Translations under genes and position numbers: made by a program
Origin: Candidatus Omnitrophota bacterium
GTDB lineage: Bacteria; Hinthialibacterota; Hinthialibacteria; Hinthialibacterales; Hinthialibacteraceae
Direction of reading: 5' to 3'
Length of the DNA stretch: 64,000 bases
NCBI GenBank assembly: GCA_013177805.1
Contig: JABLXU010000021.1
Coordinates: forward strand, 1 to 64,000
The notes under the pieces: generated by a model
The model's database searches: none
Told to the model about the DNA's origin: nothing
The model's input: the letters and a program-made list of their open reading frames with translations, nothing else
Part shown: positions 29,704-58,930 of the stretch, piece after piece
How positions within the stretch are numbered: position 1 is the stretch's first letter
Layout of the letters: every line of letters starts with the position of its first letter

Positions 29704-29719
29704 ATAGCTATGAATATGA
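29704..29719 (+). promoter_or_regulatory. ATAGCTAT box upstream of the exported protein at 29829
   Basis: ATAGCTAT at 29704-29711, extended as ATAGCTATGAAT, is identical over 12 bases to the box at 50563 in the cytochrome locus. It overlaps a possible core promoter (TTGGCT at 29686, 17 bases, TATGAA at 29709). Confidence 0.45.
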
Positions 29720-40341: not shown

Positions 40342-40353
40342 GAGCATCGGATT

Positions 40354-42738: not shown

Positions 42739-42776
42739 TTGAAATTTCCTCCATAGCTATGCTAGAATTTAGCTAA
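42739..42776 (+). promoter_or_regulatory. Promoter with two embedded TAGCTA palindromes, upstream of the ArsR-family gene
   Basis: TTGAAA (42739-42744), 18-bp spacer, TAGAAT (42763-42768). ATAGCTAT (42753-42760) lies inside the spacer and TTAGCTAA (42769-42776) directly follows the -10, so a bound protein would block RNA polymerase. This fits autorepression by the gene that follows. Confidence 0.6.
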
Positions 42777-42803
42777 TATAACATCCAGCCACGGCATAAT
42801 AAT

Positions 42804-43142
42804 ATGAACATGCATGATGAACTCGCCAACCAGGAATTCCGCGAAATGCTGGCCGAACGTATTCGGGCGTTAGGGGATCCAACTCGTATCCTTTTGTTAC
42901 ATGAACTGATGAAGGGAGAGAAATGTGTCCATGAACTGGCTGATATCGTGGGGAAAAGTCAAGCGACGGTGTCCAAGCACTTGGCGATCCTGCACCGGCA
43001 CGGTTTTTTGCAGCATAGGCGGGAAGGGGTGCAAACTTTTTACCGGATCGGCAATTCTAGTATGCAAACATTTTGTGAATTGATGTGTGAATCCCTCAAA
43101 AAACACCTCAGCAACATGGCCAAGGTCGGTGCGTCCGAATAA
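42804..43142 (+). CDS. ArsR-family transcriptional regulator at the head of the cytochrome locus
   Basis: 112 residues, winged helix. RALGDPTRILLLHEL is the family signature; recognition helix SQATVSKHLAILHRHGFL. Cysteines are Cys41 (helix alpha-3, EKCVHELAD) and Cys91/Cys95 near the C-terminus (FCELMCESL). This placement would allow a thiol switch or metal binding, but the sensory ligand is not determined. It is convergent with the cytochrome operon that ends at 43170, and its promoter carries the box shared by the cytochrome units, so it is the best candidate for their regulator. Confidence 0.88.
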   Translation: MNMHDELANQEFREMLAERIRALGDPTRILLLHELMKGEKCVHELADIVGKSQATVSKHLAILHRHGFLQHRREGVQTFYRIGNSSMQTFCELMCESLKKHLSNMAKVGASE

Positions 43143-43169
43143 TTCGGGCGGAACTATGCCTCTCTCCCT

Positions 43170-44324
43170 TCATGACCCACCGAATCCCTTTTCCTTCGTG
43201 TATTTCCGGTCATCGTCGTGACATGCCGCGCATGAATAGGCAACTCCGCCGGCTTTGGGAATCAGGTTGCCATTGGATTCTTCCATCGAACCCTCATGAC
43301 ACACCACGCATTCCGCCTGACGATGGACCTCATCCAGGGCCACGCCGGTGACGGTGTGGTCGAACGTTTCCGCTTTCCATCCTTCGATGTGGCAGTTCGT
43401 GCAACGGTTGTCCAGTTTCCGCAGATTACCCCGCTGGATGTGGCAATCCAGGCAGTGCAGGCGGTCATGGTAGATCTTCAGGGGCCATCCGCTGGCGGCG
43501 TGATTGAACACATCGTTAGGATCCCGCCCATGGCAATGCTCACACGTGTCGTTTTCATGGCAAACAAAACAATGATCGTGCATAGCCTCCGGAGTCAGAT
43601 TGCCCATGGGCTTCAGCTCGGCGGCGTATTGGTCATGACACGCTTCACACCCCTGTTGCTGGTGGCAATCACCGCAGTTGCGGTCGTACTTATACGCGTG
43701 CGTTTTGTGATGAAAGGGCACTTGGTCGTTTTCTTCGTAATTCGTATTGTAAATAATCAAATCCCGCATTCGGACTGGTGGGTAATGCTTGGTTTCGGAG
43801 GGGGAGACCGCCGTGCCGTGGAGCGGACCGCCGGATTTCTTCTCGTGGCAGATCACGCAGTCGGTGTTCCGGTCCCATTGGGTGTGGCAGCCGACGCATT
43901 GCCGGTGATACGCCCCTTTAAGGCCCGGCTGGGCGATGTTCTCGTGAATGATATCCACGGGATGACAGCTTTTACACGAAGCGGGAATGGCGCCCTTTTC
44001 GTTATAATGATGGCACATCTGGCACCCTTCGACCGTGCTGGACATGTGGGCGTGCGTCGCGTGGTTGAAGCGTACCGGCACGTATAGATCCTCCACTGCC
44101 TTCAATTCGTCCAGAATCACCACGTCAGGTCCCTGGGTGGCCAAGGGCACATAGGCCCCTTTGGGCCGGGGACATGGCTGCAAACAGGGATTTTCCGAGG
44201 TTGGATGAAGACAAGTATGGCATTGTGCGCAGTCCACGATGGGATGTTCCTCAGCGGCCGCGATTCCGGCGAGGGGAATGATAAAGAGCGCAATGGATAT
44301 CCAAAAGCGGGATGAATGATTCAT
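43170..44324 (-). CDS. 13-heme periplasmic cytochrome c
   Basis: 384 residues with a signal peptide ending near residue 24 (LAGIAAAEE). Thirteen CxxCH motifs run from CAQCH (residue 32) to CAACH near the end, several in close pairs as in CGDCHQQQGCEACH and CFVCHENDTCEHCH. Right after the first heme there are extra cysteines at 38, 47 and 51 (CHTCLHPTSENPCLQPCP) not used by heme motifs. It is the last gene of a three-gene minus-strand operon after the CbcL-like and HybA-HybB-like proteins, so it probably takes electrons from, or gives them to, that quinone-linked complex in the periplasm. Confidence 0.92.
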   Translation of the reverse strand: MNHSSRFWISIALFIIPLAGIAAAEEHPIVDCAQCHTCLHPTSENPCLQPCPRPKGAYVPLATQGPDVVILDELKAVEDLYVPVRFNHATHAHMSSTVEGCQMCHHYNEKGAIPASCKSCHPVDIIHENIAQPGLKGAYHRQCVGCHTQWDRNTDCVICHEKKSGGPLHGTAVSPSETKHYPPVRMRDLIIYNTNYEENDQVPFHHKTHAYKYDRNCGDCHQQQGCEACHDQYAAELKPMGNLTPEAMHDHCFVCHENDTCEHCHGRDPNDVFNHAASGWPLKIYHDRLHCLDCHIQRGNLRKLDNRCTNCHIEGWKAETFDHTVTGVALDEVHRQAECVVCHEGSMEESNGNLIPKAGGVAYSCAACHDDDRKYTKEKGFGGS

Positions 44325-44344
44325 TATGATTTATCCTCTCGCGA

Positions 44345-46459
44345 TCAAGATTCCTTCTCTTCCATCGTGGGAATAATGGGGAACACCGTCACCATGATCC
44401 GGTACACTAACATCAGTCCAGCAATTAATCCCAACGTCACCACGATTTCACCCCAGCTGGGGAAATAGGCCGTGACTTTATACACCGGCGTATACGCCGT
44501 AATGAATACGTTGATCCGGTTGAACGCCACGCCGATCACCACGAGGGCGGACGCGATAAACAGCAGCCCAGGATTCTTTCTTACTCCTTTCATCAGGAAC
44601 ATCCCCAGAGGGATGAGTACGCCGATCAACATCTCCGCCATAAACATGTAGGATTGCACGCTGCCGTCGAACAGGTACTTGCCCGCCTCGCGGATGGTGA
44701 TATCCCCCAACTTGGTGGCGAAATAGGCGGCCAGGAAAATGGCGATCGACTTGCTCAAAGGGCTGAGAATATGCATCTCCGGCTTTTGGTTGAAGATTCG
44801 CGAGGCGATCATCGACTCGAAGATGACCATTGGAAATCCGACGCAAAACGCCGTAAGCAAAAAGAGCAGGGGCAGGATCGGGGTGTACCAGAGGGGATGC
44901 ATCTTGTAGGGGGCGATCAGCATCAGCGCGCCCAGAGAGGATTGATGCAGGAATGACAGCACCACCCCCGCGATTACGATCACCGGCAAAATCCGGAATA
45001 AATACCGTTCTGCCAACCCCAGCACTCCTTCCACCATGCCGTTGAACCGTGAGAGGATCCCGGGCAGATTCACCTGGCCTTTGAACCGCTCCACCACGAT
45101 GGGCACAAACTCAAGGTACAGCACCGTAAGGTAGGCCATGACGCACATACCCACCTCGAAAAGCACCGAGTGGCCGGACCACATGGACGGCATCATGGGA
45201 TGCCAGATGTTGTAGTACCGCCCGAGATCCACCAGCAGGCCAAAGACCACGAAGGTATACCCCAGTAACGCGGTCAACAGGGCGGGCCGCACAATCGGTT
45301 CGTAATGCTTGCGGTGGAAGATATGAGCCAGCGCCGCGGTGGTGTAACCCCCAGCGGCCAAGGCCACGCCCGTGGCCACATCTACTGCGATCCACAATCC
45401 CCAGGGATATTGGTCATTCAGGTTGGTCACCGCTCCAATTCCGAACAGAAAACGGTATACGGCCACGCTGAGACCCATGAAAATGAATCCCAACAACAAC
45501 AAAACGCCAGGGGTGATCAATTTCTTGCCCATCGGCGCCGCCTTGGAGGGATTGTATTTCAAAGGAACTTTCGGCAGATGTTCGTCTTGGTTTTGTTCAC
45601 CGTACAACCAGGAAATCATGCCCAGAATGGAGAAAAGGGCAACCGGCGGGATGAAATAGTTGAAGATCCCATGCTGCAATCCTTCCGTGAGCCGGGGTGG
45701 CGCGGTTTCTCCCAAAACGGGCAGGCCGATCTCCTCAAACGGCTTGCTGGAGATATAAAGCCACGAGGTGCCGCCCGCTTCGTGCTCGCCATAAACATGG
45801 GGGACGTATTTCTGAGGATTTTTGGCGATTTTCTGCTTTGCGAGTTCCAGCAGATCTTTTCGCTTGCCGAAGGTCAGGCATTGGGGCGGGCAGATTTCCA
45901 CGCAGGCGGGGACGCCACCCTCCTGGGAAATGCGTTCGTAACATAACGTGCATTTCTGGACCTTAGGCGTGAGGGGATTGTCGTATTCATAAGCCGGGAT
46001 CTGAAATGGGCAGGCCACCATGCAATAGCGGCACCCCATGCACCGGTCCGCATTGTAAACCACTGCTCCCGTCGCGGTTTTGGTGAAGGCGGTGACCAGG
46101 CAGGCCGAATAGCACGCCGGATGATTGCAATGAAAACATTGAAACTTCACCCACAGCGGGCGTCCGCCTTCTTCCGGGCCGGGATATTCATTGACAATGG
46201 TGTAATGCCCGGCGTCCGGACGCCGATGTTTCTCAAAAACCGACTTATCCTCGAACGTCTCCAAAGGCTGCATGGGCAGGTGGTTGGCTTGGTTGCAGGC
46301 CCATTCGCATTTGCGGCAGCCGATGCATTCGGTGACATCCGTCAACACGCCATAATACTCGGCGGCGGTTTCTTCCGGATCGGCGGCCGCGCTTGATGCG
46401 GCGGGAATTCCGGTGGTTCCAATGGAAGCCACAGTGGCTAGAAAATTCCGGCGGTCCAT
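44345..46459 (-). CDS. HybA-HybB-like fusion: 4x[4Fe-4S] ferredoxin plus NrfD/HybB quinol membrane subunit
   Basis: 704 residues from the ATG at 46459 (GGAG six nt upstream); a GTG 12 bases earlier is possible. The N-terminus MDRRNFLATVASIG is a twin-arginine signal. Four Cys clusters for [4Fe-4S] centres follow: CIGCRKCEWAC, CFHCNHPACYSAC, CMGCRYCMVAC, and CTLC...CVEIC. A membrane helix at ~265-285 and then 8-9 helices (~330-700) resemble HybB/NrfD (YPWGLWIAVDVATGVALAAG). In most complexes these are two proteins. It should exchange electrons between the quinone pool and periplasmic cytochromes, coupled to the 13-heme and c/b cytochromes of this operon. Confidence 0.92.
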   Translation of the reverse strand: MDRRNFLATVASIGTTGIPAASSAAADPEETAAEYYGVLTDVTECIGCRKCEWACNQANHLPMQPLETFEDKSVFEKHRRPDAGHYTIVNEYPGPEEGGRPLWVKFQCFHCNHPACYSACLVTAFTKTATGAVVYNADRCMGCRYCMVACPFQIPAYEYDNPLTPKVQKCTLCYERISQEGGVPACVEICPPQCLTFGKRKDLLELAKQKIAKNPQKYVPHVYGEHEAGGTSWLYISSKPFEEIGLPVLGETAPPRLTEGLQHGIFNYFIPPVALFSILGMISWLYGEQNQDEHLPKVPLKYNPSKAAPMGKKLITPGVLLLLGFIFMGLSVAVYRFLFGIGAVTNLNDQYPWGLWIAVDVATGVALAAGGYTTAALAHIFHRKHYEPIVRPALLTALLGYTFVVFGLLVDLGRYYNIWHPMMPSMWSGHSVLFEVGMCVMAYLTVLYLEFVPIVVERFKGQVNLPGILSRFNGMVEGVLGLAERYLFRILPVIVIAGVVLSFLHQSSLGALMLIAPYKMHPLWYTPILPLLFLLTAFCVGFPMVIFESMIASRIFNQKPEMHILSPLSKSIAIFLAAYFATKLGDITIREAGKYLFDGSVQSYMFMAEMLIGVLIPLGMFLMKGVRKNPGLLFIASALVVIGVAFNRINVFITAYTPVYKVTAYFPSWGEIVVTLGLIAGLMLVYRIMVTVFPIIPTMEEKES

Positions 46460-46525
46460 GATGTTCTCCACTCGATAAATCGTGAGATGAAACTCCTAGT
46501 GGGGTGAATGGTACCAGGCCGCGTA

Positions 46526-48484
46526 TCACGACTCGGTGTCACTGTTTCCCTTGTTCTCGTCGGCGGTTTCCCGCAGTTCCGTTACCTCTTTCCGGGCTTC
46601 AGATGCGAATGTTCGTTCATATTCCAATGGATGGCGGCTCCTCAGATGATGCAGGGTCATCCGCCCGTTTAGCCAGGTGACGCTCATGGGATACTCCTCT
46701 GGATGGAAAATGACGAAAAAGAAATGCCACACGACGATCGCCAACGTGGCCAGCACGGCTTCGTAGTAGTGGATCAACTCGGCGATGTCGATCGCCCACT
46801 TGGGCAGATATTGGAAGGCTAGGATCGGAAACCAGAGGATGAGGCCGGTTACCGCCATGATAATCACACCCCAGACCAGCGCCCAGAATTCCATCTTTTC
46901 CGCATAATCATACCGGTCGAAACGCGGCGGCTCGGTCCGTTTGCCCCGGTAATACTGCAGGTTTTCCCATACATGGCGGATGTCCCGCGGCCAAAACAGG
47001 AAGGCGGCCAGTTCTTCCCGGCCCCGCCGGAAAGCCAGCATGTAGAATGCGTAAGCCATCGCTGTGGCCATCATCACCACCGCCGCAACACGGTGGCTGA
47101 CCGAACGAATCCCTTCACTGAAGCCCAAGTAGGACAGCATGGTGACCCACCACGAATTGGGGCTGACCAGCGCAAATCCAGTGATCACCAACACGATAAA
47201 GGTGATCGTCAGCAAAATGTGGCAAATGATCTCAAACCGGGTGAACCGTTGATAGGTGGGCTGGCTCACTTCCCTCTTGAATTTCTCCTTCAGCAACGCC
47301 CAGAGGATCACACCGTTGTGAACCAGCATGCCCCCGATGATCACGACGATCAGCGGTATATAAATCCGGGGAACCCAGGCGGCAATTGCGTCCGAGCGCA
47401 GAGTGACTTCCGTGTGAATGGGAGCGGCCAGCACATTGGCCGTGATCCCTGGATGACAGCGGCCGCACGTCTCAACCAACCGCTCGGGACTGACCGTGGA
47501 ACGCGGATCGGACGAAGGCAGAATCAGGTGATTCCCATGGCAACTGCTGCACAGGGCCACTTTCTTGGACCCGTGCTGCAAGGCCAAACCATGGTAACTT
47601 TCGAAATAATTTTGTACCCGGCCCTTGGGGATGTTGTACTTTTCGTTAATCACAATAGACGAGTGGCAGCGCCCGCAGGTATTGCCCGATACGTTGGCGT
47701 ACGAAACCGGTGAGCGTTCGTCTGTTACCCGGAAGATGGCGTGCTCTCCGTGACAATCGGTGCAAATAGGTGCATCTTTATGGCCGTAGGCCGCCGATTT
47801 TCCATGCACGCTTTCCTGGTACTGTTCTTTCTCGGTGGTGTGACACTGCCCGCATGTCTCGGCCACGTTCATGAAATTGGTGCGCGAGTTCGGATCCCGC
47901 AACGGCAAAATCGCGTGTGAACCGTGGCAATGAACACACGAGGGGGCCTTGTCGTTCCCCCGCAACAATTCCGTGGCGTGGACGCTTTCCCGGTACAGCA
48001 TTTCCCGTTGAAGGACATCTTTGCTATATTCGGCCATGATGGCCGATTCGGAATGGCACTTGCCGCACACATTTGCCACCCGGAATAAATTGGTGAGCGA
48101 GTTGGGGTGGCTGGCCGGGAGGATTTTGTGGGCGTCCCCATGGCAATCCACGCACGAGGGACCATCCGGCACGTCATGGACCGAGGATTTCAACTCCTCG
48201 GCGGTCGAATGGCAGGAGGAACAATCCACCTTCTGGAGTTCTGTATCGTGCGGCAATTCCGTGATGTCAGAATGGCAACCGGTGCATCCCGCGTCCTTGT
48301 GGACCGATGCCTCGAACAACTTTAAATCGACGAACATGGATTGTTCCTGGCCGTCCCGCTCCCCCACAATGTCGGCATCCGCGTGGCATTCCAAGCAGGA
48401 TTGCGGTTCTTCCAGGTCTTGCGTCAGCGTGAATGGATTGGAGACGAACAGGATCAGTACGGCAAAGCGGAAATACGGCTTCAT
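46526..48484 (-). CDS. CbcL-like multiheme cytochrome c / cytochrome b fusion
   Basis: 652 residues from the ATG at 48484, which has GGAG eight nt upstream and opens a signal peptide (MKPYFRFAVLILFVS). Eleven CxxCH motifs occupy ~15-365, from CLECH to CGRCH. The C-terminal ~380-600 has four to five helices of the FdnI/HydC-type di-heme cytochrome b, with His residues in RFEIICHILLTITF, GIRSVSHRVAAVV, and VVWHFFFVIFHPEEYP. This two-part plan is that of CbcL, the low-potential quinol oxidase of Geobacter metal reduction; CbcL has nine c hemes. It heads the three-gene operon and probably passes electrons from menaquinol to the periplasm. Confidence 0.9.
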   Translation of the reverse strand: MKPYFRFAVLILFVSNPFTLTQDLEEPQSCLECHADADIVGERDGQEQSMFVDLKLFEASVHKDAGCTGCHSDITELPHDTELQKVDCSSCHSTAEELKSSVHDVPDGPSCVDCHGDAHKILPASHPNSLTNLFRVANVCGKCHSESAIMAEYSKDVLQREMLYRESVHATELLRGNDKAPSCVHCHGSHAILPLRDPNSRTNFMNVAETCGQCHTTEKEQYQESVHGKSAAYGHKDAPICTDCHGEHAIFRVTDERSPVSYANVSGNTCGRCHSSIVINEKYNIPKGRVQNYFESYHGLALQHGSKKVALCSSCHGNHLILPSSDPRSTVSPERLVETCGRCHPGITANVLAAPIHTEVTLRSDAIAAWVPRIYIPLIVVIIGGMLVHNGVILWALLKEKFKREVSQPTYQRFTRFEIICHILLTITFIVLVITGFALVSPNSWWVTMLSYLGFSEGIRSVSHRVAAVVMMATAMAYAFYMLAFRRGREELAAFLFWPRDIRHVWENLQYYRGKRTEPPRFDRYDYAEKMEFWALVWGVIIMAVTGLILWFPILAFQYLPKWAIDIAELIHYYEAVLATLAIVVWHFFFVIFHPEEYPMSVTWLNGRMTLHHLRSRHPLEYERTFASEARKEVTELRETADENKGNSDTES

Positions 48485-48527
48485 GGGGTTGACTCCATGC
48501 TGAAAAACTACGATGGTGGTTTTCACC

Positions 48528-48557
48528 ATTATATAGCTATATAGCTAAAAATGTAAT
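48528..48557 (-). promoter_or_regulatory. Promoter with embedded TAGCTA boxes for the CbcL-like operon
   Basis: On the minus strand ATTACA (48557-48552), 18 bases, TATAAT (48533-48528). The spacer is filled by ATAGCTATATAGCTAA (48533-48548 read on the plus strand), two overlapping TAGCTA palindromes. The layout matches the promoter at 42739. Confidence 0.6.
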
Positions 48558-48712
48558 CGATCCCAGAGTAATTTTCCTTGCGGATTCATGGAATGAAATT
48601 CAATAAAAAAATATTTTAATTTATTTAGTTTGTATATAGGTCTCACATCAATTGAGATCATACTGGTGCCGTAAAAGAGAGTATGGCCGGAAATCCGGCT
48701 AACTCAGAATAT

Positions 48713-48729
48713 TGGAATACAGATTGCAC
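48713..48729 (+). promoter_or_regulatory. Candidate sigma-54 promoter of the ImcH-like gene
   Basis: TTGGAATACAGATTGCA has GG at 48714-48715 and GC at 48726-48727, the required 10-bp spacing, with TTGCA at the -12 element. It is 110 bases before the gene start. A GCCGG-AAAT-CCGGC dyad is at 48695-48708. Confidence 0.35.
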
Positions 48730-48837
48730 AGAAACCGGTTGAAAATTCTGGCCGGTTTGCCGTAAAACCCGGCTGACGGTCTCAACCCATTTTAAGCAAA
48801 TATCTAACCAAGTCCGGTTCGACGGGAGACAATGCGA

Positions 48838-50352
48838 ATGACAGAACAATCCACATCCCCCCTTCATAAACCTTTGACCCACAATTGGGTGTCGGTTTTT
48901 GGATTCATGCTGGCTATGGCGTTTCTGGTTGGAGAAGCCCTGATCATCACCCTGGATTTCGTGTATGGCCAAAATAATCCCTACGTGGGGATTCTGATTT
49001 ACGTAGTGGGGCCTGCGATCCTAATCCTGGGATTGCTGATGGTCCCGCTGGGGATGTGGCTGCAATTCCGGCGGCGTCAAAAAGGAATGGTGGAGAAAGA
49101 GTTTCCCGTTTTTGATTTAAATACACCCCGCCACCGCCTCTATTTGACTACGTTTGTCATCATTTCCACCGTGTTTATCTGCCTCTCGATGATCGGTTCC
49201 TATCAGGCCTATCACGTGACTGAATCCACTGAATTCTGCGGACTGATGTGCCACCAGGTAATGAAGCCGGAGTACACAGCATATCAATACTCCCCGCACG
49301 CCCGGGTGGATTGCGTGCAATGCCACATCGGGCCGGGCGCGAGCTGGTACGTAAAAAGCAAACTCTCGGGCTTGCGGCAAGTCTGGGCGGTGGCGACGAA
49401 TTCCTATGAACTGCCGATCCAAACCCCGATTGAAAATCTGCGCCCCGCCCGAGACACCTGCGAGCAGTGTCATTGGCCGGAGAAATTCTACGAAGCGGTG
49501 GAAAAATCATTGACCTATTACGCCAACGACGATGAGAACACACCCTATCACGTCAAGCTGCTCCTCCACGTGGGCGGCAGTTCCACGATTCTGGGCCATT
49601 ATACGGGAATTCACTGGCACATCGCCCGGGATCACAAATTAGAGTACTACCCGGCCGATTACGCCCGCCAGATCATCCCTTGGGTCCGCGTCACTCATGA
49701 AGACGGGCGGGTGGAGGAATTCATCAGCACTGAAGCCACGGATTTCGACAAATCGCAAATCGATCCCGCCGCGATCCGCGAACTGGATTGTATCGACTGC
49801 CACAACCGCCCCTCGCACCGGTACGAATCTCCTTTTGCTTCCGTCAATCAGGCAATGGAACTGGGGCTGATCGATCCTAAGTTGCCGGGAATCAAGGGAG
49901 TGGCGGTCGAGGCCTTACAAGGCGAATATCAAACCACCCCCGAGGCCTTACAGGCTATCGAGGACAAAATCCGCGGACAGTTTGAAGAAACCGCGGCAAA
50001 CGACCCTGAAATCAAAGCCAAAGTGGATCAGGCCGTTAAGCAAACCCAAGCCATATTTGAGCGAAGTATCTTTCCCGAAATGAAAGTGGATTGGACGAAA
50101 TACCCCTCCAATATCGGCCATTTCGACTTTCCTGGTTGCTACCGGTGCCATGATGGGAAGCACGCCACTCCGGAGGGGAAAGTCATCCGGGATGATTGCA
50201 ATCTGTGTCATTCAATCATCCAACAGGGCGAAGGCTGGGAAGAGATCAACCAACTCGAATACAAGTTGCAAGACTTTGTACATCCCCGGGGCATGGGCGA
50301 TGCCTGGGAAGGGCAAAACTGCCATGAATGCCACGGCCCCGGCATGATGTAA
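48838..50352 (+). CDS. ImcH-like NapC/NirT-family 7-heme inner-membrane cytochrome
   Basis: 504 residues from the ATG at 48838 (GGAG nine nt upstream). Three membrane helices precede the heme domain (FGFMLAMAFLVGEALIITLD; LIYVVGPAILILGLLMVPLG; FVIISTVFICLSMIGSYQAY). The first heme motif is CGLMCH (CX3CH) followed by six CxxCH motifs: CVQCH, CEQCH, CIDCH, CYRCH, CNLCH, CHECH. Three helices plus seven hemes match ImcH, the high-potential quinol oxidase used by Geobacter for extracellular electron transfer. It probably oxidises menaquinol and reduces periplasmic cytochromes. It lies divergent from the CbcL-like operon. Confidence 0.88.
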   Translation: MTEQSTSPLHKPLTHNWVSVFGFMLAMAFLVGEALIITLDFVYGQNNPYVGILIYVVGPAILILGLLMVPLGMWLQFRRRQKGMVEKEFPVFDLNTPRHRLYLTTFVIISTVFICLSMIGSYQAYHVTESTEFCGLMCHQVMKPEYTAYQYSPHARVDCVQCHIGPGASWYVKSKLSGLRQVWAVATNSYELPIQTPIENLRPARDTCEQCHWPEKFYEAVEKSLTYYANDDENTPYHVKLLLHVGGSSTILGHYTGIHWHIARDHKLEYYPADYARQIIPWVRVTHEDGRVEEFISTEATDFDKSQIDPAAIRELDCIDCHNRPSHRYESPFASVNQAMELGLIDPKLPGIKGVAVEALQGEYQTTPEALQAIEDKIRGQFEETAANDPEIKAKVDQAVKQTQAIFERSIFPEMKVDWTKYPSNIGHFDFPGCYRCHDGKHATPEGKVIRDDCNLCHSIIQQGEGWEEINQLEYKLQDFVHPRGMGDAWEGQNCHECHGPGMM

Positions 50353-50385
50353 AATCTCATCCACTGCTATGTCCCTGGCCGCTGC

Positions 50386-50410
50386 CACCCTAATTGGGTG
50401 ATATGCCCCA
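50386..50410. promoter_or_regulatory. CACCC-AATT-GGGTG dyad, copy 1
   Basis: CACCCTAATTGGGTGATATG continues to GCCCCA; almost the same 25 bases occur at 56581. Lies 220 bases before the 9-heme gene. It might be an activator site. Confidence 0.4.
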
Positions 50411-50562
50411 ATTCCGGTTCCGTTATTGGTGGATTTAACCCGATCGGTTTTCTACTGAAGAATTGTGAATAATTTCGTTGATTTTTATTCAAAAATTCTG
50501 CATGATTATCCAAATCGGGGATTGAAATGGAATAGAGAATCAGGTAAAAGATTATTTGATCA

Positions 50563-50578
50563 ATAGCTATGAATCCAA
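50563..50578 (+). promoter_or_regulatory. ATAGCTAT box upstream of the 9-heme cytochrome gene
   Basis: ATAGCTATGAATCCAA matches the consensus ATAGCTATNNATCTAA at 13 of 14 fixed positions. It is 53 bases before the gene start. Confidence 0.55.
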
Positions 50579-50630
50579 AATTGAAAATATGGATAGTTTA
50601 TAAAGAAATTACTTTCTATATCAGAATCCT

Positions 50631-52541
50631 ATGAAAAATTCCTCCAATTTACTTCCTTTCCTGGCAATCTTGGTTATATCAACGCTTGTATGTACTGCGC
50701 TGGCCGGAGCGGGGATTGAAGTATTAACCGTCTCTCCCCGCTTGATTGCGGATGATGAAACCGGATTCCTTGATCAACGCACAACCGGTTTGTCCAACGT
50801 GGGATTGGGAGATAAATGCTATCTCACGGTCCGTCCGGACAATCCGGACGATCAACTTACCAGTATCGCATGGTTCTTTGCCGGTCGGCCCGCCTCCTCG
50901 GCCGCGGCGTTTCAATTTGTGGATCAGGCCCAGACATGGTTTATCCCGGATAGGATTGGCGAATATATTGTGCAAGTCACCGCTCAAAGCACCCTCACAG
51001 GGGAGACGATGACTTTCCAACGGAGAATCCTGGGCGCGGTTTTTACGGGAGTCGGGGGACGGAACAACGAGGCACCCCAGTTCCCGCAATGCCAACTCTG
51101 CCACGGGGCGATTGTGGACCGGTGGGAAACCACCCGGCATGCGCATGTGCTCGAAAATCACCTCAATGGGCAGCGTTCCGATCAATACGATCCAACCTGC
51201 TTCGAGTGCCATACAGTGGGATTCAACGCGCAATCGGTGGCGGCCAACAATGGCTTCAGTCATACTGCCCGTATCCTCCAAGCCGATCTCAACCAACTGG
51301 CCGGTCAAGTCAACGAAGCCTTCCGCCGGAATCAGGATGCCAATCCCGGGAATGATGTGTTGTATTATGAGACCCTGGCACCCCAGTTGCGGGCCAAGGC
51401 CAATGTACAATGTGAAAATTGCCATGGGCCGGGCAGTGAGCACTTTGGCAATCCCGCCAATATCGGCAAGGCTTGGGACGCCCGTGTGTGCGCTCAATGC
51501 CATGACGCGATGGGATTCGACGGGTATCCCTACCCGTTCGATTCCTCCAGCCACAAGAAGTTGACGGCTTCCCTCCAAAACAATCCCGGTTTGTTTAACT
51601 CCAGTTGCGCCAAATGCCACACTGCCGAAGGTTTTTACCGTCTCGCGGTTCTGAACAATCCCAATATTCTCCCGGATGACAATCTCGAACCGCATGGCGT
51701 CTCGTGCGTAGCTTGCCATGATCCTCATAACCTCGTCCATCCCATGCAACTCCGGTTGATGGGAGATATCCCGCTTGACAGCGGCCATGTATACACGGAG
51801 GGCGGTACGGGAAGCCTTTGCGCGGTGTGTCATCAGTCGCGTGTGTCAGGCAGCCTGGAATCGGTGATCCAAACCCAAAACAATGCTCCCCATTTCGGAC
51901 CCCAAGCGGATGTCATGATGGGCATCAACGCTTGGGATTTCGGCACGGGATTTGTGAATAAAACATCCGTCCATAAGTATGTGGTCCAGGATACATGCGT
52001 GGCCTGCCACATGGCCCGCATCCCCGAAAATGGTTGGAGCCTGGAACGGGGAATTCTCCTGGGCGGGCATAGCTTTCGGGTCACCAACATCGGGGACGCG
52101 GCCGGGCATGCGATATCGAATTACCAAAATTCCTGCTTGCCGTGTCACCTGACCATGACTTCCATCGACCGGCGCATGTCCACCAGCCAGGACTACGACG
52201 GGAATGGGAAAATCGAGGGTATCCAGACCGAGGTCAAGGGATTGCTCCGGATCATTGCGGCTCAATTACAACAACGATATCCAGACATCCAGGTAAGAGA
52301 AGATCAGGAATTGATCATTCCCTCCGCGGTCTTTAACCAGGCGTCGTTCCTAGAGCGGGCCGCTATCTACAACTACCGCCTGGTAGTGCGGGACGGCAGT
52401 TTCGGCATTCACAACGCGCGGTTTATCGTCGAGATTTTACAAAAAACATATGGGGCATTGACGCAACGATCGTTCAATTCGGACTATCCTATGGCGTACG
52501 CGGTGGGAACCTCCTCCGTCCAGGGATGGTCTGAATATTAA
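50631..52541 (+). CDS. 9-heme cytochrome c with N-terminal beta domain
   Basis: 636 residues, signal peptide ending near ALAGA (residue ~26). Residues ~28-140 form an Ig-like beta domain (YLTVRPDNPDDQLTSIAWF; EYIVQVTAQSTLTGE). Nine CxxCH motifs follow: CQLCH, CFECH, CENCH, CAQCH, CAKCH, CVACH, CAVCH, CVACH, CLPCH. The end is a long helical segment with YNYRLVVRDGSFGIHN, a pattern shared with the helical C-termini of NrfA/hydroxylamine-oxidoreductase-type multiheme proteins. It could be an electron-transfer cytochrome or an enzyme; no distal-ligand heme variant (for example CxxCK) is present. No clear ribosome binding site. It begins a four-gene plus-strand unit. Confidence 0.88.
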   Translation: MKNSSNLLPFLAILVISTLVCTALAGAGIEVLTVSPRLIADDETGFLDQRTTGLSNVGLGDKCYLTVRPDNPDDQLTSIAWFFAGRPASSAAAFQFVDQAQTWFIPDRIGEYIVQVTAQSTLTGETMTFQRRILGAVFTGVGGRNNEAPQFPQCQLCHGAIVDRWETTRHAHVLENHLNGQRSDQYDPTCFECHTVGFNAQSVAANNGFSHTARILQADLNQLAGQVNEAFRRNQDANPGNDVLYYETLAPQLRAKANVQCENCHGPGSEHFGNPANIGKAWDARVCAQCHDAMGFDGYPYPFDSSSHKKLTASLQNNPGLFNSSCAKCHTAEGFYRLAVLNNPNILPDDNLEPHGVSCVACHDPHNLVHPMQLRLMGDIPLDSGHVYTEGGTGSLCAVCHQSRVSGSLESVIQTQNNAPHFGPQADVMMGINAWDFGTGFVNKTSVHKYVVQDTCVACHMARIPENGWSLERGILLGGHSFRVTNIGDAAGHAISNYQNSCLPCHLTMTSIDRRMSTSQDYDGNGKIEGIQTEVKGLLRIIAAQLQQRYPDIQVREDQELIIPSAVFNQASFLERAAIYNYRLVVRDGSFGIHNARFIVEILQKTYGALTQRSFNSDYPMAYAVGTSSVQGWSEY

Positions 52542-52571
52542 ATTTTAGTAATGAAAGAAGGAGCTGACGTC

Positions 52572-53162
52572 ATGAAGAAATCGAGCATCGTGGGGTTGTT
52601 GATTGGGCTGACTGCTCTGCTGGTGATTCCGTTTCATGTCCTCAAAGCCGGAGAAGAGAGCAAGGACGTGGAGAAAATTGAATTCGTGGGCGCGAACAAA
52701 TGCAAAATGTGCCATAACTTGAAAAAATTCGGTATGTTCCATGATGATTGGATGCAGACCAAACACGCGAAGGCCATGGATGTCCTGAACGAGGATGAAA
52801 AGAAAAATCCCGAGTGCTTGAAATGCCACACCACCGGGTACGGCAAACCGGGCGGTTTTGTCAGCTTGGAAAAAACTCCTGCCCTGGCCGGTGTCCAATG
52901 CGAAATGTGCCATGGCCCCGGACAAGAACATATTAAATCGAAACGCGGCGGCACCGTGATCCCTCATGCTTGGGAACCGGAAGAGGAAACCTGTGTGAAA
53001 TGCCATAATAAGGAGAATCCCAACTGGAAAGAAGACCGGTACACCGATCCAGAAACAGGTACCAAAGCCGGTTTCATTTACAAAGTCGCGGTGAAGGAAA
53101 TCAATCACGCCAAAGTTCTGGAACAACTGGGTAAAAAACCCAAAACTGCTGATTTGAAATAA
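52572..53162 (+). CDS. Tetraheme cytochrome c (c554 family-like)
   Basis: 196 residues from the ATG at 52572, with AAGGAG nine nt before it. Signal peptide to about residue 26. Four CxxCH motifs (CKMCH, CLKCH, CEMCH, CVKCH) in the c554/c-prime type arrangement, e.g. GANKCKMCH, CLKCHTTGYG, GVQCEMCHGPGQEH. Such proteins shuttle electrons in the periplasm. It follows the 9-heme gene by 30 bases and precedes the porin gene by 75, so it may feed the outer-membrane conduit. Confidence 0.92.
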   Translation: MKKSSIVGLLIGLTALLVIPFHVLKAGEESKDVEKIEFVGANKCKMCHNLKKFGMFHDDWMQTKHAKAMDVLNEDEKKNPECLKCHTTGYGKPGGFVSLEKTPALAGVQCEMCHGPGQEHIKSKRGGTVIPHAWEPEEETCVKCHNKENPNWKEDRYTDPETGTKAGFIYKVAVKEINHAKVLEQLGKKPKTADLK

Positions 53163-53237
53163 CCTCCGGGTATCTTTCTCAATAGCCCCGGCCGTCGGAG
53201 GGGATTCCCTCTCGTTGGGAAATAGACGGTAAATGAA

Positions 53238-54746
53238 ATGGAATCTGAACGTGTGTGGCGAAGAGGTATGAACGGGAAACTTCACATCCTTGTGGTTTTC
53301 TTCTTAGGAACAATCTGCCTCACCTGGGCTCCGGCTCCAAAGGCTGGAGCCCAGGAGTCCGCTGAATCCGTGGATACCAGGGAGACCGAAAGCCCGGAGG
53401 CCGAACAGCCGGCCGCCGGAGGTGCTGACGTGGAGAGTGCCGCTGGGGAAAGTGGATCGCCAGAAAAATCGGCATGGTTTGAATCCATGAAAGTATCCGG
53501 TACGCTCCACTCTAGTTATCAATTCCGCAGCTACGATGGCCGGGACGATAGCGATATCTATGAGTATTTCTCATTGCGGTTGCGTGATATCGTGAAGGAC
53601 CGGGTTGACGGAGCGTTTTCGCTTTTTTGGCATGAGGATCTGAACGGTGGCAGTACGCTCAAGGGATCTGAACTTTACGATCCCTTTTTGGACATCGACC
53701 AGGCGGACAGCAATCGCTTCCGGTTCTACACTGGTTACCTGGATTTCAAGCAACTGGGTTTCGAGGAAAGCCGCCTGCGCGTGGGCCGTCAATTCCTGGA
53801 GGATATCGACTACGCCCATTTCGACGGCGCGTCCTACCGGTTTTCTCCCACCGATCCGTTGGAAATTACCCTGTTCGGCGGCCGTCCCGTAACGTTTTAT
53901 TCGTCCTCCAGCGGTGACGCCTTCTACGGCGCGGATGTCCGTTACCGCTTCACGCCTCAAACCAAGGCCGCCGCCCGCTATTACCGTTACGACGCCGATC
54001 CGTTCCGGGATGACTTGGCCGCGGTAGAAGTCTGGCACATGTTCATGCCGGAACTGCAAACCCACGCCGAGTTCTCCCTGCTGGATGCCGATCCATATCT
54101 TTTCCAGAACGATTGGTATTACCGCTGGGATGAATACGACTTCGATATCGTGGCTCAAGTCGTCCGTCTATTCAGTGAAATCAGCGATCAAACTATTAAT
54201 TTCAATCCCTATTTCCCCGTCATGCATGGCTACGAGCCATTCACTTACGGTTCCACCCTCTTCACCAAGGGATTGAATGACTGGGTCAGCCTCAACGCCG
54301 GTTTCGATTTCCGGGTGTCGGATGGCGGCCTGGATCCCGTCGCGGAATACACCAACCGGGACTACGTCCGGGGGACTCTCGGGGCGGAATTCTATCCCAC
54401 CCGGCAATTGACCCTCAGCGTGAACGGAGAATACTGGAGCGTGGATTCTGATGATGAATTCACTGGAGTCTCCGGCGAGGTGGAATACAAGCCCACGAAG
54501 CAATGGACACTCACGGCCGGTGCGGAATATGGAGAATATATCCAAGAGTATATGGATGAATTTCTCTTGTTCTTTGGACAGGAAGAAGTGTTCCGGATTA
54601 CCCCGGATGTCATCACCTATTACGCCCGGGTCAAGTGGCAACCCACAAGCAGAATCTACACCGCCGCCCGCTTCGAAGTGGAGGATAACAGCCTCGAGAA
54701 CGACAATTGGTACGCATTCCAATTGCAAGTGGGAGTCAATTTTTAA
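53238..54746 (+). CDS. Outer-membrane beta-barrel porin of a porin-cytochrome conduit
   Basis: 502 residues. A signal peptide lies within 11-35 (GKLHILVVFFLGTICLTWAP); the Met at 53268 is an equally possible start. After an Ala/Glu-rich linker, alternating hydrophobic/polar strands fill the rest (HSSYQFRSYDGRDDSDIYEY; YTGYLDFKQLGFEESRLRVG; GADVRYRFTPQTKAAARYY) and the chain ends WYAFQLQVGVNF, with the C-terminal Phe needed for barrel insertion. The 11-heme lipoprotein gene begins one base after the stop, the arrangement of Geobacter-type porin-cytochrome complexes. It should sheath a cytochrome through the outer membrane. Confidence 0.85.
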   Translation: MESERVWRRGMNGKLHILVVFFLGTICLTWAPAPKAGAQESAESVDTRETESPEAEQPAAGGADVESAAGESGSPEKSAWFESMKVSGTLHSSYQFRSYDGRDDSDIYEYFSLRLRDIVKDRVDGAFSLFWHEDLNGGSTLKGSELYDPFLDIDQADSNRFRFYTGYLDFKQLGFEESRLRVGRQFLEDIDYAHFDGASYRFSPTDPLEITLFGGRPVTFYSSSSGDAFYGADVRYRFTPQTKAAARYYRYDADPFRDDLAAVEVWHMFMPELQTHAEFSLLDADPYLFQNDWYYRWDEYDFDIVAQVVRLFSEISDQTINFNPYFPVMHGYEPFTYGSTLFTKGLNDWVSLNAGFDFRVSDGGLDPVAEYTNRDYVRGTLGAEFYPTRQLTLSVNGEYWSVDSDDEFTGVSGEVEYKPTKQWTLTAGAEYGEYIQEYMDEFLLFFGQEEVFRITPDVITYYARVKWQPTSRIYTAARFEVEDNSLENDNWYAFQLQVGVNF

Positions 54747-54747
54747 T

Positions 54748-55695
54748 ATGATTCAGAACCGACTTTCCCCATTATCTTGGTTGATACCCCTGATTTGGGC
54801 AGTTTTTCTCTCTGGTTGCGATCCCAAGGAACTGGCCAATACCTTTCCGCACAAACCCCATATCGATCAGGGAGTGACCTGCGATGTTTGCCATGAAATG
54901 CAAGACAACCAAGTGACCAATCCGACCCTCGAAACCTGTCTGACCTGTCACACCCTGGACGAAGACCGGTATCAAAAATGCCAGGATTGTCACAATCAAA
55001 CCTCCGTGGAATGGAACGAACAGAGCCTCATCACTCACGAAAAAATGCTGCGGCCTTTCCTGCCAAAGGATTGGGAGGATATCTCGTACAAACACGGCGA
55101 ACATTTGAAGGACTACAACCATTGCGTGGATTGCCACAAGGGAGTCGAGCAATCCACCCAAATATCGATCGAGAACTTGCCCTCCATGAAAACCGCCATG
55201 GCCGTGCATGAGGAACTGGGATTATCCAATGATTGCGAAGCCTGCCACCTCGAACTCAATTCTTTTACTCCTCCCACCAGCCACGACAGCCGGTGGACGG
55301 AAACTCATGGCCGCATGACAGAGTTCACAGGCACAGACAGCTGTTTGCTATGCCACCAAGAAGAAACTTGCCAACTGTGCCATGCCACTCAAAAACCTCG
55401 AAATCACACCAATTTGTGGCGGCTGAAAACCCATGGCATTCAAGCCTCGTTCGACCGGGCGAAATGCATGGTCTGCCACCGGGACGATACCTGTCTGGTC
55501 TGCCACCAGGCATCTTCTCCCCCGGTGCCGCCTGCTTCCTATCACACACCGGATGCCACGTGTTTATCGTGCCACAGCCCCTTGGCCGCCCGGGGACCTA
55601 AACCCCGTCCCAAACCAAGCCTCTACAAACCGATGCCCCACCGCATGATGATGGGTGTAACTTCCCAAAAATGCCTGGAATGCCATCTGTTTTAG
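54748..55695 (+). CDS. 11-heme cytochrome c lipoprotein
   Basis: 315 residues from the ATG one base after the porin stop; a longer frame reading back into the porin is a shadow. Signal peptide with lipobox FLSGC (Cys about residue 26). Eleven CxxCH motifs from CDVCH to the very C-terminal CLECH; several are paired (CLLCHQEETCQLCH, CMVCHRDDTCLVCH). The lipid anchor and translational coupling to the porin point to a subunit of the porin-cytochrome conduit, on either the periplasmic or outer face. Sequence spacing resembles the 13-heme protein at 43170. Confidence 0.9.
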   Translation: MIQNRLSPLSWLIPLIWAVFLSGCDPKELANTFPHKPHIDQGVTCDVCHEMQDNQVTNPTLETCLTCHTLDEDRYQKCQDCHNQTSVEWNEQSLITHEKMLRPFLPKDWEDISYKHGEHLKDYNHCVDCHKGVEQSTQISIENLPSMKTAMAVHEELGLSNDCEACHLELNSFTPPTSHDSRWTETHGRMTEFTGTDSCLLCHQEETCQLCHATQKPRNHTNLWRLKTHGIQASFDRAKCMVCHRDDTCLVCHQASSPPVPPASYHTPDATCLSCHSPLAARGPKPRPKPSLYKPMPHRMMMGVTSQKCLECHLF

Positions 55696-55851
55696 TTAAA
55701 AGCTATCGGATATACGGATCGGGTTGGGCGGCGAGAGAATCGATTCCTAGTCCAGGGCGTTTGGCGGATAAGACCTATCTTAATGTATATCAGTTAGTTA
55801 AGAGTATAGAGAAGATCCCGTTTGGGCTTTGGGAAATGGCGGGAGTGCTGT

Positions 55852-56448
55852 TCAAGAACCATCCCGCTTCCAGTCTTGATGGCATCGCTGGCAATCCAAT
55901 CCGGTATCCGATTGCTGTATTCCGTGGGTCATGGCTGGTGAGGGGAAGGCTGGGGTTGGATTGATGATAACTTTTTCCATCTGGACGATGTTATAAGCCT
56001 GGAAGGTTCCGATGCTGGTCAGGATCAGGAACATGGGCGTGATGCCAATAAAGATACCCGTGCGTAACCGGTGAAGGTGATCCTCTTCATCGGAATCCAT
56101 TTCGGTGAAGGCTGTAGGAATCGATTTCCGGCGCTGGGTTTCCAGAATCTGGCCGATGGGGACCAGCGCGAGACTGGCCACCAGGACCGCCGGAGCCAAT
56201 AAGTAAATGAAAATCCGAACGTTATGGCTGAAAATGCCGAACAGCAAGTCGATTGGGATCAGTAAGGCTTCCAAAAAAAGCAAAAGAATAGCGGCCAATA
56301 GTCCGAACGTGGAAAATACGGATGGACCGGTAGAGAATCGGTCAGGTGAATTTGTATAAGGTTCCATCAAGTCGTACACCGTAAATCGATAGATCGATCG
56401 GATTATATGCCGCCTAATTATTTTTTCCTCAAATGTGGAGTTTATCAA
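55852..56448 (-). CDS. Truncated ImcH-like membrane protein with a single heme motif
   Basis: 198 residues. Three membrane helices (FGLLAAILLLFLEALLIPID; FIYLLAPAVLVASLALVPIG; IFIGITPMFLILTSIGTFQAY) align in order and spacing with the N-terminal part of the ImcH-like protein at 48838, including the shared end SIGTFQAY / SMIGSYQAY. The long heme domain is missing; only one motif, DCQRCHQD, remains ten residues before the stop. No further CxxCH coding is found downstream. It may be a decayed paralogue or a small membrane cytochrome. It is oriented against the neighbouring cytochrome genes. Confidence 0.65.
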   Translation of the reverse strand: MINSTFEEKIIRRHIIRSIYRFTVYDLMEPYTNSPDRFSTGPSVFSTFGLLAAILLLFLEALLIPIDLLFGIFSHNVRIFIYLLAPAVLVASLALVPIGQILETQRRKSIPTAFTEMDSDEEDHLHRLRTGIFIGITPMFLILTSIGTFQAYNIVQMEKVIINPTPAFPSPAMTHGIQQSDTGLDCQRCHQDWKRDGS

Positions 56449-56580
56449 TCAAGTGAATAGTTGCCAGGACAATAGGTGACAGGAATATACCCTGGTTTTT
56501 TGGATGATCCAGTGGAGCGCGCCGTTTATTCTCTTTCGTCATCCGTGGGTGACCTCCCCACTGGGGAGATTCATAATTCT

Positions 56581-56606
56581 CACCCAAAATTGGGTGATTT
56601 GCCCCA
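56581..56606. promoter_or_regulatory. CACCC-AATT-GGGTG dyad, copy 2
   Basis: CACCCAAAATTGGGTGATTT continues to GCCCCA; nearly the same as the copy at 50386. It stands 135 bases before the -24 element of the candidate sigma-54 promoter, a normal distance for an activator site. Confidence 0.45.
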
Positions 56607-56696
56607 CTCGGTTGGAACATGCATCTCTGGGAAGACATCCTGGAGTATCGGTGGAAACGGTAAGATCCGTGATCTTCGGGATTTTTATACCGATTC

Positions 56697-56712
56697 ATAG
56701 CTATTTATCTAA
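56697..56712 (+). promoter_or_regulatory. ATAGCTAT box upstream of the decaheme cytochrome
   Basis: ATAGCTATTTATCTAA is identical at 14 of 16 bases to the site at 48533. It ends just before the -24 element of the candidate sigma-54 promoter. Confidence 0.55.
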
Positions 56713-56713
56713 C

Positions 56714-56730
56714 AAGGAACGATCTTTGCT
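56714..56730 (+). promoter_or_regulatory. Candidate sigma-54 promoter of the decaheme gene
   Basis: AAGGAACGATCTTTGCT: GG at 56716-56717 and GC at 56728-56729 with 10 bases between, plus ACG after GG and TTTGCT at -12, close to TGGCACGNNNNTTGCW. Start codon is about 40 bases beyond the expected transcription start. Confidence 0.5.
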
Positions 56731-56778
56731 CCAAATTAGTGGCGCACTAAAACTTTTTTCAACGAGGTGTCAGTAACT

Positions 56779-58827
56779 ATGGATCGACGCGGATGGATTT
56801 TACCCCTGATGGGATTCGCTATCGGATTATGCGGTATGACGGCTTGGGGCGCGGACGGTTTGCAGGTCAAGATTTTGAGTACGGTAATCAACCAAGACCT
56901 CAAACCCGAAGTGACTTTCACCGTCCAGGATGGCGTAGGCAATCCCTTGGCGCTTTCTGAGGTGACGGTCCGTTTCATGATTGCCCGGCTGGATGTCTAC
57001 GACGCTCAGAAAGGCAGTTCGGCCTATTGGAGCTACAATGTCCGGACCCAGACCGTCCCGGAAGGATATCCCAACGCCGGCGCGCGGGCCGAGCAGGCCA
57101 CTCTCGACAGCAATGGGATCTTGACCCAGTTGGAATTCGGCAAGTACCTGTATACTTTCAATACGGCCTTGCCCGCGGATTACGACCGGACTAAGACGCA
57201 CACCGTGGGCGGGCAGATCCAGCGGAATGTGGACGATAAGGTCTTTTACGCCAATCCTCTCTATCATTTTGTCCCCAATGGCAGCGACGTCGTAGCATTG
57301 CGCAAGGTGGTCACTACCGAAGCCTGCAATGCTTGCCATGCCGGTTTGGCGTTGCACGGCGGCGGGCGGCGCGAGGTGGGATATTGCATCCTGTGCCATA
57401 GTCCTCAATCCACCGATCCCGATACGGGCAATACCGTGGACATGACGGTCATGATTCACAAGATCCACATGGGCGAGGATCTCCCCAGCGTCCAGGCGGG
57501 GAAGCCTTACCAAATTGTAGGCAACAGGCAGAGCCTTCATGATTATTCTAAAGTCGTGTTCCCTATGGACCATCGGAATTGCACGTCGTGCCACGACGGG
57601 CCACAGGGATCGGTGTACAAGACCGCTCCGAGCATCCGGGCCTGCGGTTCTTGCCATGACGATGTCAATTTCCAGACCGGTGAAGGCCATGGCCCCGGCA
57701 ATTTTCCCCAGCAAGATGATTCCATGTGCACCGCCTGCCATACCGCGGAAGGACCGGAGTTCGGCATATCCGTCGCCGGCGCGCATACTGTGCCCGCCAA
57801 GTCGCAGAAACTGCGCGGCTTGATCGCGGAGATCCTCGAAGTGACGGACGCCCTGCCCGGTCAGGCCCCCAAGGTGACTTTTTCACTAAAACAGAAAGAT
57901 GGCAGCGCGGTTGATCCGGTGGAACTTACCTCGTTCGCCATCACCTATGCTGGACCGACAAAGGAATACACCTCGTACACCCGGGAAGACGCCTCGAAAA
58001 CCTCCAGCAAGGTAGGAGAGGGGACCTATACCTATACTTTTACCAAAGCCCTTCCTGTGGACGCGCAAGGAACATATGCCTTCGTGATCGAAGGGCGGCG
58101 CACAGTGGTGTTGGAAGACAAGCCGGAAGGCATGCAAGATATAACCGTGGTCGAGGGATTAATGAATCCGGTCAAGTATGTCGCGGTTACCGATACGCAA
58201 CCGGTGCCCCGCCGCCAGGTGGTCAGCCTGGAAAAATGCAACGCCTGCCATGACCAGTTATCCCTGCACGGGTCCCAGCGCAATGTCATCGATAACTGTG
58301 TGACGTGCCACAATCCCAAGGTCAGCGACATCGGGCGCCGGCCGGAAGGCGTGGGTGGCGGCCAATCGGTCAGTTTCGCGTACATGATCCACAAAATCCA
58401 CGCCGGGGAGGAGTTGGAGAAGGATTACACCGTGTACGGGTTCGGCAATACCCCGCACAATTACAATCATGTCCTCTTTCCGGGTTTGTTGAACAAGTGT
58501 GACATGTGCCATGTGACTTCCGTTCCCGCTTTGCCGCTTTCTTCGGATGTATTGCCAATTAATTTCACTGACAAGGATGGCAAGAATGTCCGTATCCCGC
58601 CCACCAGCGCGGCGTGCAACTCGTGCCATGACAACGATTCCGCTCTCGCCCACGCGGAACTCAACACCACGTCGGAAGGAATCGAATCCTGCGCCGTTTG
58701 CCACCGCGAAGGCCGGGACGCCAGCATCGCGGAGGCGCATGCCGTCAAGCAGTTCCTGAACGTGATCGAGACGATGGGTCCGCCTCCCACCGCCGTGGAG
58801 CATTGGAGTATGTTCTTGAATCAATGA
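56779..58827 (+). CDS. OmcA/MtrC-family decaheme outer-surface cytochrome
   Basis: 682 residues from the ATG at 56779 (ACGAGG upstream; a GTG 12 bases earlier is possible). Signal peptide ends near TAWGAD. The family plan is complete: beta domain I (~25-165), pentaheme domain (CNACH, CILCH, CTSCH, CGSCH, CTACH), beta domain II (~345-455), second pentaheme domain (CNACH, CVTCH, CDMCH, CNSCH, CAVCH), ten motifs in all. The conserved CNACHAGLALHGGGRREVGYC-like stretch and MIHKIHMGE/MIHKIHAGE repeats are diagnostic. Members reduce minerals, electrodes or shuttles outside the cell. No lipobox is evident. A terminator follows. Confidence 0.95.
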   Translation: MDRRGWILPLMGFAIGLCGMTAWGADGLQVKILSTVINQDLKPEVTFTVQDGVGNPLALSEVTVRFMIARLDVYDAQKGSSAYWSYNVRTQTVPEGYPNAGARAEQATLDSNGILTQLEFGKYLYTFNTALPADYDRTKTHTVGGQIQRNVDDKVFYANPLYHFVPNGSDVVALRKVVTTEACNACHAGLALHGGGRREVGYCILCHSPQSTDPDTGNTVDMTVMIHKIHMGEDLPSVQAGKPYQIVGNRQSLHDYSKVVFPMDHRNCTSCHDGPQGSVYKTAPSIRACGSCHDDVNFQTGEGHGPGNFPQQDDSMCTACHTAEGPEFGISVAGAHTVPAKSQKLRGLIAEILEVTDALPGQAPKVTFSLKQKDGSAVDPVELTSFAITYAGPTKEYTSYTREDASKTSSKVGEGTYTYTFTKALPVDAQGTYAFVIEGRRTVVLEDKPEGMQDITVVEGLMNPVKYVAVTDTQPVPRRQVVSLEKCNACHDQLSLHGSQRNVIDNCVTCHNPKVSDIGRRPEGVGGGQSVSFAYMIHKIHAGEELEKDYTVYGFGNTPHNYNHVLFPGLLNKCDMCHVTSVPALPLSSDVLPINFTDKDGKNVRIPPTSAACNSCHDNDSALAHAELNTTSEGIESCAVCHREGRDASIAEAHAVKQFLNVIETMGPPPTAVEHWSMFLNQ

Positions 58828-58901
58828 CTGTCATTCACAGGTTGATAAGCCGCCGGTATTGATCCGGTGCTCCCATCTCTCATGGAATCTCCTATCCGAT
58901 T

Positions 58902-58930
58902 GGGGGAGTCGAACGACTCCCCCGGTTTTT
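58902..58930 (+). terminator. Rho-independent terminator after the decaheme gene
   Basis: Perfect 10-bp stem GGGGGAGTCG / CGACTCCCCC around AA, then GGTTTTTT. Confidence 0.92.

Follow-up and report, generated by a model that had tools for sequence, protein, structure and literature searches.

A candidate extracellular respiration locus joining Geobacter-type quinol gateways, a porin-cytochrome conduit and an MtrC-type decaheme protein in Hinthialibacteria

Do the heme genes crowded into 16 kb of a Hinthialibacteria genome form one respiratory chain that reaches the outside of the cell, and are they expressed together? The stretch analysed here, called the window, is the 64,000 nucleotides at positions 1-64000 of contig C14 (JABLXU010000021.1) of genome G000, which comprises 5.58 Mb in 93 contigs and is 98% complete and 5.2% contaminated. 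The locus at window positions 42804-58827 carries 66 heme motifs, 65 CX2CH and one CX3CH, in eight genes, which are accompanied by one gene for a fused Fe-S/NrfD protein. We consider it rather probable that this locus encodes an extracellular respiration chain whose expression would be coordinated by an ArsR-type regulator through the palindrome TAGCTA, with heme synthesis probably in the same regulon. The comparison class comprised 14 genomes, and the same family includes five sister genera; G001, G003 and G004 below are from the family, and G012 is from another family of the class.

A preliminary description of the window had listed eight heme-bearing genes with 13, 11, 7, 9, 4, 11, 10 and 1 motifs together with one Fe-S/quinol protein, and the motif count and the domain searches bear this out, the seven being six CX2CH and one CX3CH. 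The first gene of the described range (42804-43142) encodes an ArsR-family regulator and no cytochrome. The reading frames of the heme genes are kept in sister-genus orthologues at ~41-69% identity, and because the motifs fall in these conserved frames, we take the heme genes to be real genes. The genes of the chain are as follows:

43170..44324, minus strand: 13-heme periplasmic cytochrome, HmcA-like (PF02085, partial match to NF045713)
44345..46471, minus strand: HmcB-HmcC/HybA-HybB fusion, Fe-S plus NrfD-type membrane quinol module, 708 amino acids (NF045715 343 bits, NF008133 357 bits, PF03916)
46526..48529, minus strand: CbcL-like protein with 11 c-heme motifs and a b561 membrane domain (PF01292 E 7e-18, PF14522)
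48832..50352, plus strand: ImcH homologue (PF03264, feature test, orthologues)
50631..52541, plus strand: 9-heme cytochrome with a heme-free N-terminal domain of ~130 residues, periplasmic or secreted (PF22113, PF13435)
52551..53162, plus strand: tetraheme c554-type periplasmic cytochrome (PF13435 E 7e-19)
53238..54746, plus strand: outer-membrane beta-barrel of the porin-cytochrome (Pcc) type (pairing and profile homology)
54748..55695, plus strand: lipoprotein cytochrome with 11 hemes and lipobox LSGC, coupled to the porin
55852..56448, minus strand: truncated ImcH-like copy with one heme (31% to ImcH 21-165, E 2e-13)
56767..58827, plus strand: OmcA/MtrC-family decaheme cytochrome, mtrC10

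At the inner membrane, the locus would offer three entries for electrons from quinol. ImcH has been defined as a protein of 495-519 amino acids with three N-terminal transmembrane (TM) helices, an adjoining CX3CH and six CX2CH (PMC6295460). The protein of 48832-50352 is 506 amino acids long, with TM helices at 22-40, 52-70 and 103-121, CGLMCH at 136 after the third and six CX2CH, and on these features it is an ImcH, like that of Geobacter in length, helices and motif order; the ImcH homologue of Malonomonas is 39% identical to it. The CbcL/MtrH/MtoC group is recognised by 3-23 N-terminal c-hemes followed by a C-terminal b-type TM domain like HydC/FdnI. By its domain order the protein of 46526-48529 belongs to this group, with 11 c-hemes before PF01292 at residues 428-610, although hydropathy gives five TM helices where six are expected. 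Geobacter CbcL has the same order of c-hemes and b-type domain but nine hemes, and the Geobacter genes also differ in that here both imcH and cbcL adjoin a porin-cytochrome operon. The third entry is a single open reading frame (ORF) in which HmcB is fused to HmcC/HybB. It shares Fe-S and NrfD domains and an adjoining 13-heme partner with Hmc (HmcA/B/C) and HybA/HybB; unlike there, B and C are one protein, and the curated Hmc cut-offs are not reached (HmcB 343 vs 420, HmcC 300 vs 550, HmcA 59.8 vs 400 bits). All three gateways had thus been correctly named in the preliminary description.

Records named Planctomycetota/Phycisphaerae, Myxococcales and Hydrogenedentes also have HmcBC and a 13-heme HmcA-like partner beside CbcL-like genes and at times an ImcH gene; in a Bacteroidetes record, too, genes for CbcL, ImcH and HmcBC-like proteins are clustered. 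Because such clusters recur in these records, the inner-membrane part is a widespread module. A second CbcL-like protein with 19 hemes and ~950-1000 amino acids, absent from the G000 locus, occurs alongside the 11-heme protein in sister genera and in other phyla (L018:6816-9815, L020:7240-10062, L064, L065). The gene described with one heme does have a single CX2CH, and its identity can now be given as an N-terminal ImcH-like fragment: the TM region is kept, CX3CH is lost and a stop follows the CX2CH, so that it looks like a degenerate ImcH copy. In the gap between cbcL and imcH, opposed sigma-54-like sites lie at 48713-48728 (plus) and 48795-48810 (minus); despite these two, the sigma-54 promoter scan of the window was uninformative, with 21 sites vs 18 expected from shuffles, and generic promoter and terminator scans did not rise above shuffles either.

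These cytochromes might instead serve a periplasmic reductase of nitrite, nitric oxide, sulfite or tetrathionate, with the porin genes as incidental neighbours. A NapC/NirT-type domain in ImcH and an NrfA encoded in the genome would fit such a role; however, NrfA lies on contig C21 with its own 4-heme NrfH, the locus holds no catalytic subunit of a reductase, and the porin-lipoprotein pair and the decaheme cytochrome are conserved across the class. We regard this explanation as very improbable. A gateway to nitrite reductase in particular, an alternative raised in the preliminary description together with relatives devoid of porin and decaheme genes, is rejected on account of the separate NrfA-NrfH pair; most of the relatives do have both genes.

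How would electrons then cross the outer membrane? The porin stop and the start of the 11-heme lipoprotein are one nucleotide apart; the lipoprotein gene had been recognised before, but its start is 54748, not the mechanical ORF start at 54451. All five sister genera have porin orthologues, at 59-69% identity, other families of the class have them at 29-34%, and the porin adjoins an 11-13-heme partner in every class genome where both were seen. The partner's lipobox is present in the family sequences. A Pcc system is recognised by a porin gene that always stands beside a multiheme conduit cytochrome gene, which is the arrangement found here. Weak porin matches in Desulfuromonadia, the class of Malonomonas rubra, are barrels of ~400 amino acids, most of them directly beside 8-10-heme cytochromes, and alignment of the porin profile to them with hhalign gave 98.4%, E 4.5e-15 over 364 columns. 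By this profile match the porin is a remote full-length homologue of the Desulfuromonadia porins, while sequence and profile searches against the PDB gave no match. On the conserved multiheme pairing and this homology we reject a general nutrient porin, a doubt raised earlier, and the described pairing of porin and lipoprotein cytochrome stands throughout the class.

The conduit resembles the OmbB-OmaB-OmcB type of Pcc (PMC4245776) in its barrel of ~430 residues, to which a signal and a linker are added, and in the 11 hemes of the adjoining conduit cytochrome, inside the published range of 5-14 (PMC4245776). It differs in that the conduit candidate has a lipobox, that the porin similarity is at profile level only, and that 9-heme and 4-heme proteins take the place of OmcB.

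Beyond the conduit, the product of mtrC10 has ten CX2CH and scores 488 bits against TIGR03507 (cut-off 209), and its best PDB match is MtrF (E 8e-38). It shares ten hemes and domains II/IV with Shewanella OmcA/MtrC/MtrF, as had been proposed; in contrast to these, no lipobox is found in it or in the related proteins examined. Four of the five sister genera retain the gene, there on a different contig from the porin; in G000 and in G012 it lies directly beside the porin pair. PF11854 (MtrB) had no match in G000, and TIGR03508 (MtrA) had none over its cut-off across the class; therefore the Shewanella-type decaheme protein probably works on the Geobacter-type conduit. From the sequences we infer the surface location and partner contacts of these proteins.

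The component tests thus support the earlier view that one locus joins Geobacter-type gateways to a Shewanella-type surface cytochrome. The word 'complete', which had been applied to this extracellular electron transfer (EET) locus, does not hold: MtrB is absent, MtrA is not found over cut-off, the one-heme gene looks degenerate and the decaheme protein has no lipobox. In the sister genera the same EET parts are spread over at least two contigs, and the single-locus layout is peculiar to G000. The nearest published case is Desulfuromonas acetexigens, which co-expresses Mtr, Omc and Pcc pathways (PMC12133095) and, like G000, combines Pcc and Mtr-type parts with both ImcH and CbcL. Its MtrCAB is full, whereas G000 has no MtrB and gathers the parts at a single locus with a common operator word. 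An organism that has Pcc and Mtr together with ImcH/CbcL is thus on record, with no mtrAB reported beside imcH (PMC6295460, PMC4245776, PMC12133095).

In the proposed chain, electrons would leave the menaquinol pool through ImcH, CbcL and the HmcBC fusion, the last together with the 13-heme HmcA-like protein. The 4-heme c554-type protein, and possibly the 9-heme and 13-heme proteins, would carry them through the periplasm to the porin and its 11-heme lipoprotein as conduit. The decaheme protein, perhaps with the 9-heme protein, would hand them to an outside acceptor, which may be Fe(III) or Mn(IV) oxide, another cell or an electrode. The linked ArsR-type regulator would coordinate expression via TAGCTA, and heme synthesis would probably belong to the same regulon.

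Evidence on this coordination came from the gaps between the genes, where the following features were recorded:

42753..42777: two TAGCTA operator cores, the first being ATAGCTAT, ~30-50 nucleotides before the arsR2 start
42804..43142, plus strand: ArsR-family regulator ArsR2, candidate regulator of the locus (PF01022 E 6e-15)
48533..48547: double operator ATAGCTATATAGCTA immediately upstream of cbcL, within the gap between the divergent genes cbcL and imcH
50563..50570: operator ATAGCTAT, 68 nucleotides before the porin-cytochrome operon
56697..56704: operator ATAGCTAT, 70 nucleotides before mtrC10

The palindrome ATAGCTAT occurs 16 times in the 5.58-Mb genome, compared with 71 copies of the reversed control word. 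Four copies fall in a 14-kb span of the locus, just before arsR2, cbcL, the porin operon and mtrC (Poisson P ~1e-7; this and the following test were made after the motif had been spotted by eye, so the P values are post hoc and only descriptive). The core TAGCTA is found seven times in the window, and six of these lie in four intergenic gaps of the locus: two before arsR2, two before cbcL and one each before the 9-heme/porin operon and mtrC10. Against six, 0.27 were expected, and 0 of 5000 shuffles of the intergenic sequence reached six. In the sister genera, TAGCTA precedes arsR2, cbcL-type, imcH, porin-operon and mtrC genes on several contigs, while a ~1.55-Mb sample of G004, taken irrespective of content, has only 7 copies. 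The remaining ATAGCTAT copies include six inside ORFs and one 35 nucleotides before hemA, which opens a six-gene operon in the order hemA-hemE-hemN-hemY-hemH-hemC; hemA was confirmed by Pfam, and the other five were named by reading their sequences. A fifth window copy lies at 29704-29711, ~125 nucleotides before a gene for a secreted protein of 376 amino acids with no Pfam match, a possible regulon member. An extended operator-like word, ATTCATAGCTAATTGG, stands in G004:C50 (L303:7772), ~480 nucleotides before a run of genes resembling HdrC-HdrB-HdrA plus a hydrogenase small subunit.

What is said of the hem operon, the EET promoters and the operators was read from genome sequences. The operator shared by EET genes and the hem operon predicts an ArsR-controlled EET regulon, with heme synthesis possibly as a member; a literature search found no such regulon described. 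The HTH_5 match of ArsR2 and the co-occurrence of its gene with the promoter sites make ArsR2 a candidate for the protein that would bind the palindrome. In two sister genera it has locus-linked orthologues at 64-67% identity, and the C91xxxC95 pair is kept in three family orthologues, whereas C41 is not. The EET reading may be right and TAGCTA nevertheless be bound by another factor, such as a global redox regulator. G001 and G003 have sites yet no ArsR2 orthologue in the stretches examined; against this, G000 and G004 have sites ahead of arsR2 itself, as is typical of autoregulation, and, with G000 counted, three genera have arsR2 linked to the locus. We see another factor as a serious possibility, if a rather doubtful one. 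The fullest form of the ArsR2 model, in which an ArsR-family CxxxC sensor would control a dedicated regulon of trans-envelope electron export and heme biosynthesis, and an MtrC-type surface cytochrome would work on an unrelated Pcc conduit replacing MtrAB, is put forward tentatively, only slightly nearer doubt than belief.

Several observations weigh against the proposed chain and its regulon. AlphaFold models from two-row alignments had a mean pLDDT (predicted local distance difference test) of 28 for the porin, whose barrel would have 18-22 trans-membrane strands if it is of the Pcc type, and 36 for the 11-heme lipoprotein, and the decaheme protein has no lipobox that would give it a lipid anchor at the cell surface. 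The operator tests are post hoc, only two of five sister genera have ArsR2 linked to the locus, and the hem operon was not met in ~1.95 Mb sampled of G004, so that its operator site is known from G000 alone. The genome also encodes three COX1 homologues and an alternative-complex-III-like operon, and CbcL-family proteins and MtoC relatives occur in Fe(II) oxidisers too (PMC6295460). These last points would suit the same machinery working inward, in which extracellular Fe(II), Mn(II) or a partner cell would supply electrons that enter by the porin conduit and reduce quinone, with oxygen as final acceptor. However, ImcH has been reported only from Fe(III) reducers (PMC6295460), and the best known relatives of all three quinol modules are quinol-oxidising types; inward flow seems unlikely to us. 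Given the COX1 homologues and the alternative-complex-III-like operon, the host probably respires facultatively, and we infer that the extracellular respiration chain runs outward. The latter operon (L182:6121-11322, G000:C67) encodes a 5-heme protein, a 1029-amino-acid Fe-S protein and a membrane subunit, and shares its contig with an aa3-type COX1.

The locus is flanked by two further features downstream:

58898..58927, plus strand: hairpin resembling an intrinsic terminator, behind mtrC10 (total of the scan no higher than in shuffles)
59108..60544, minus strand: NtrC-family sigma-54 response regulator (71% and 56% orthologues beside mtrC in two sister genera)

Upstream, 39940-42492 holds another ArsR regulator with a CVC metal-site motif, then a heavy-metal P-type ATPase; the two seem to form a metal-efflux operon of their own.

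By their domains and motifs, the parts of the locus belong to known families. What looks new is how they are combined, an MtrC-type protein paired with a conduit of the Pcc type where MtrAB is missing, and the shared operator, which may reach heme synthesis. With this locus, a bacterial class known from few genomes gains an almost full set of EET genes. The locus suggests that separate systems supplied the surface cytochrome and the outer-membrane conduit as interchangeable modules, and it offers a concrete, testable operator and a candidate regulator by which EET may be linked to heme supply.

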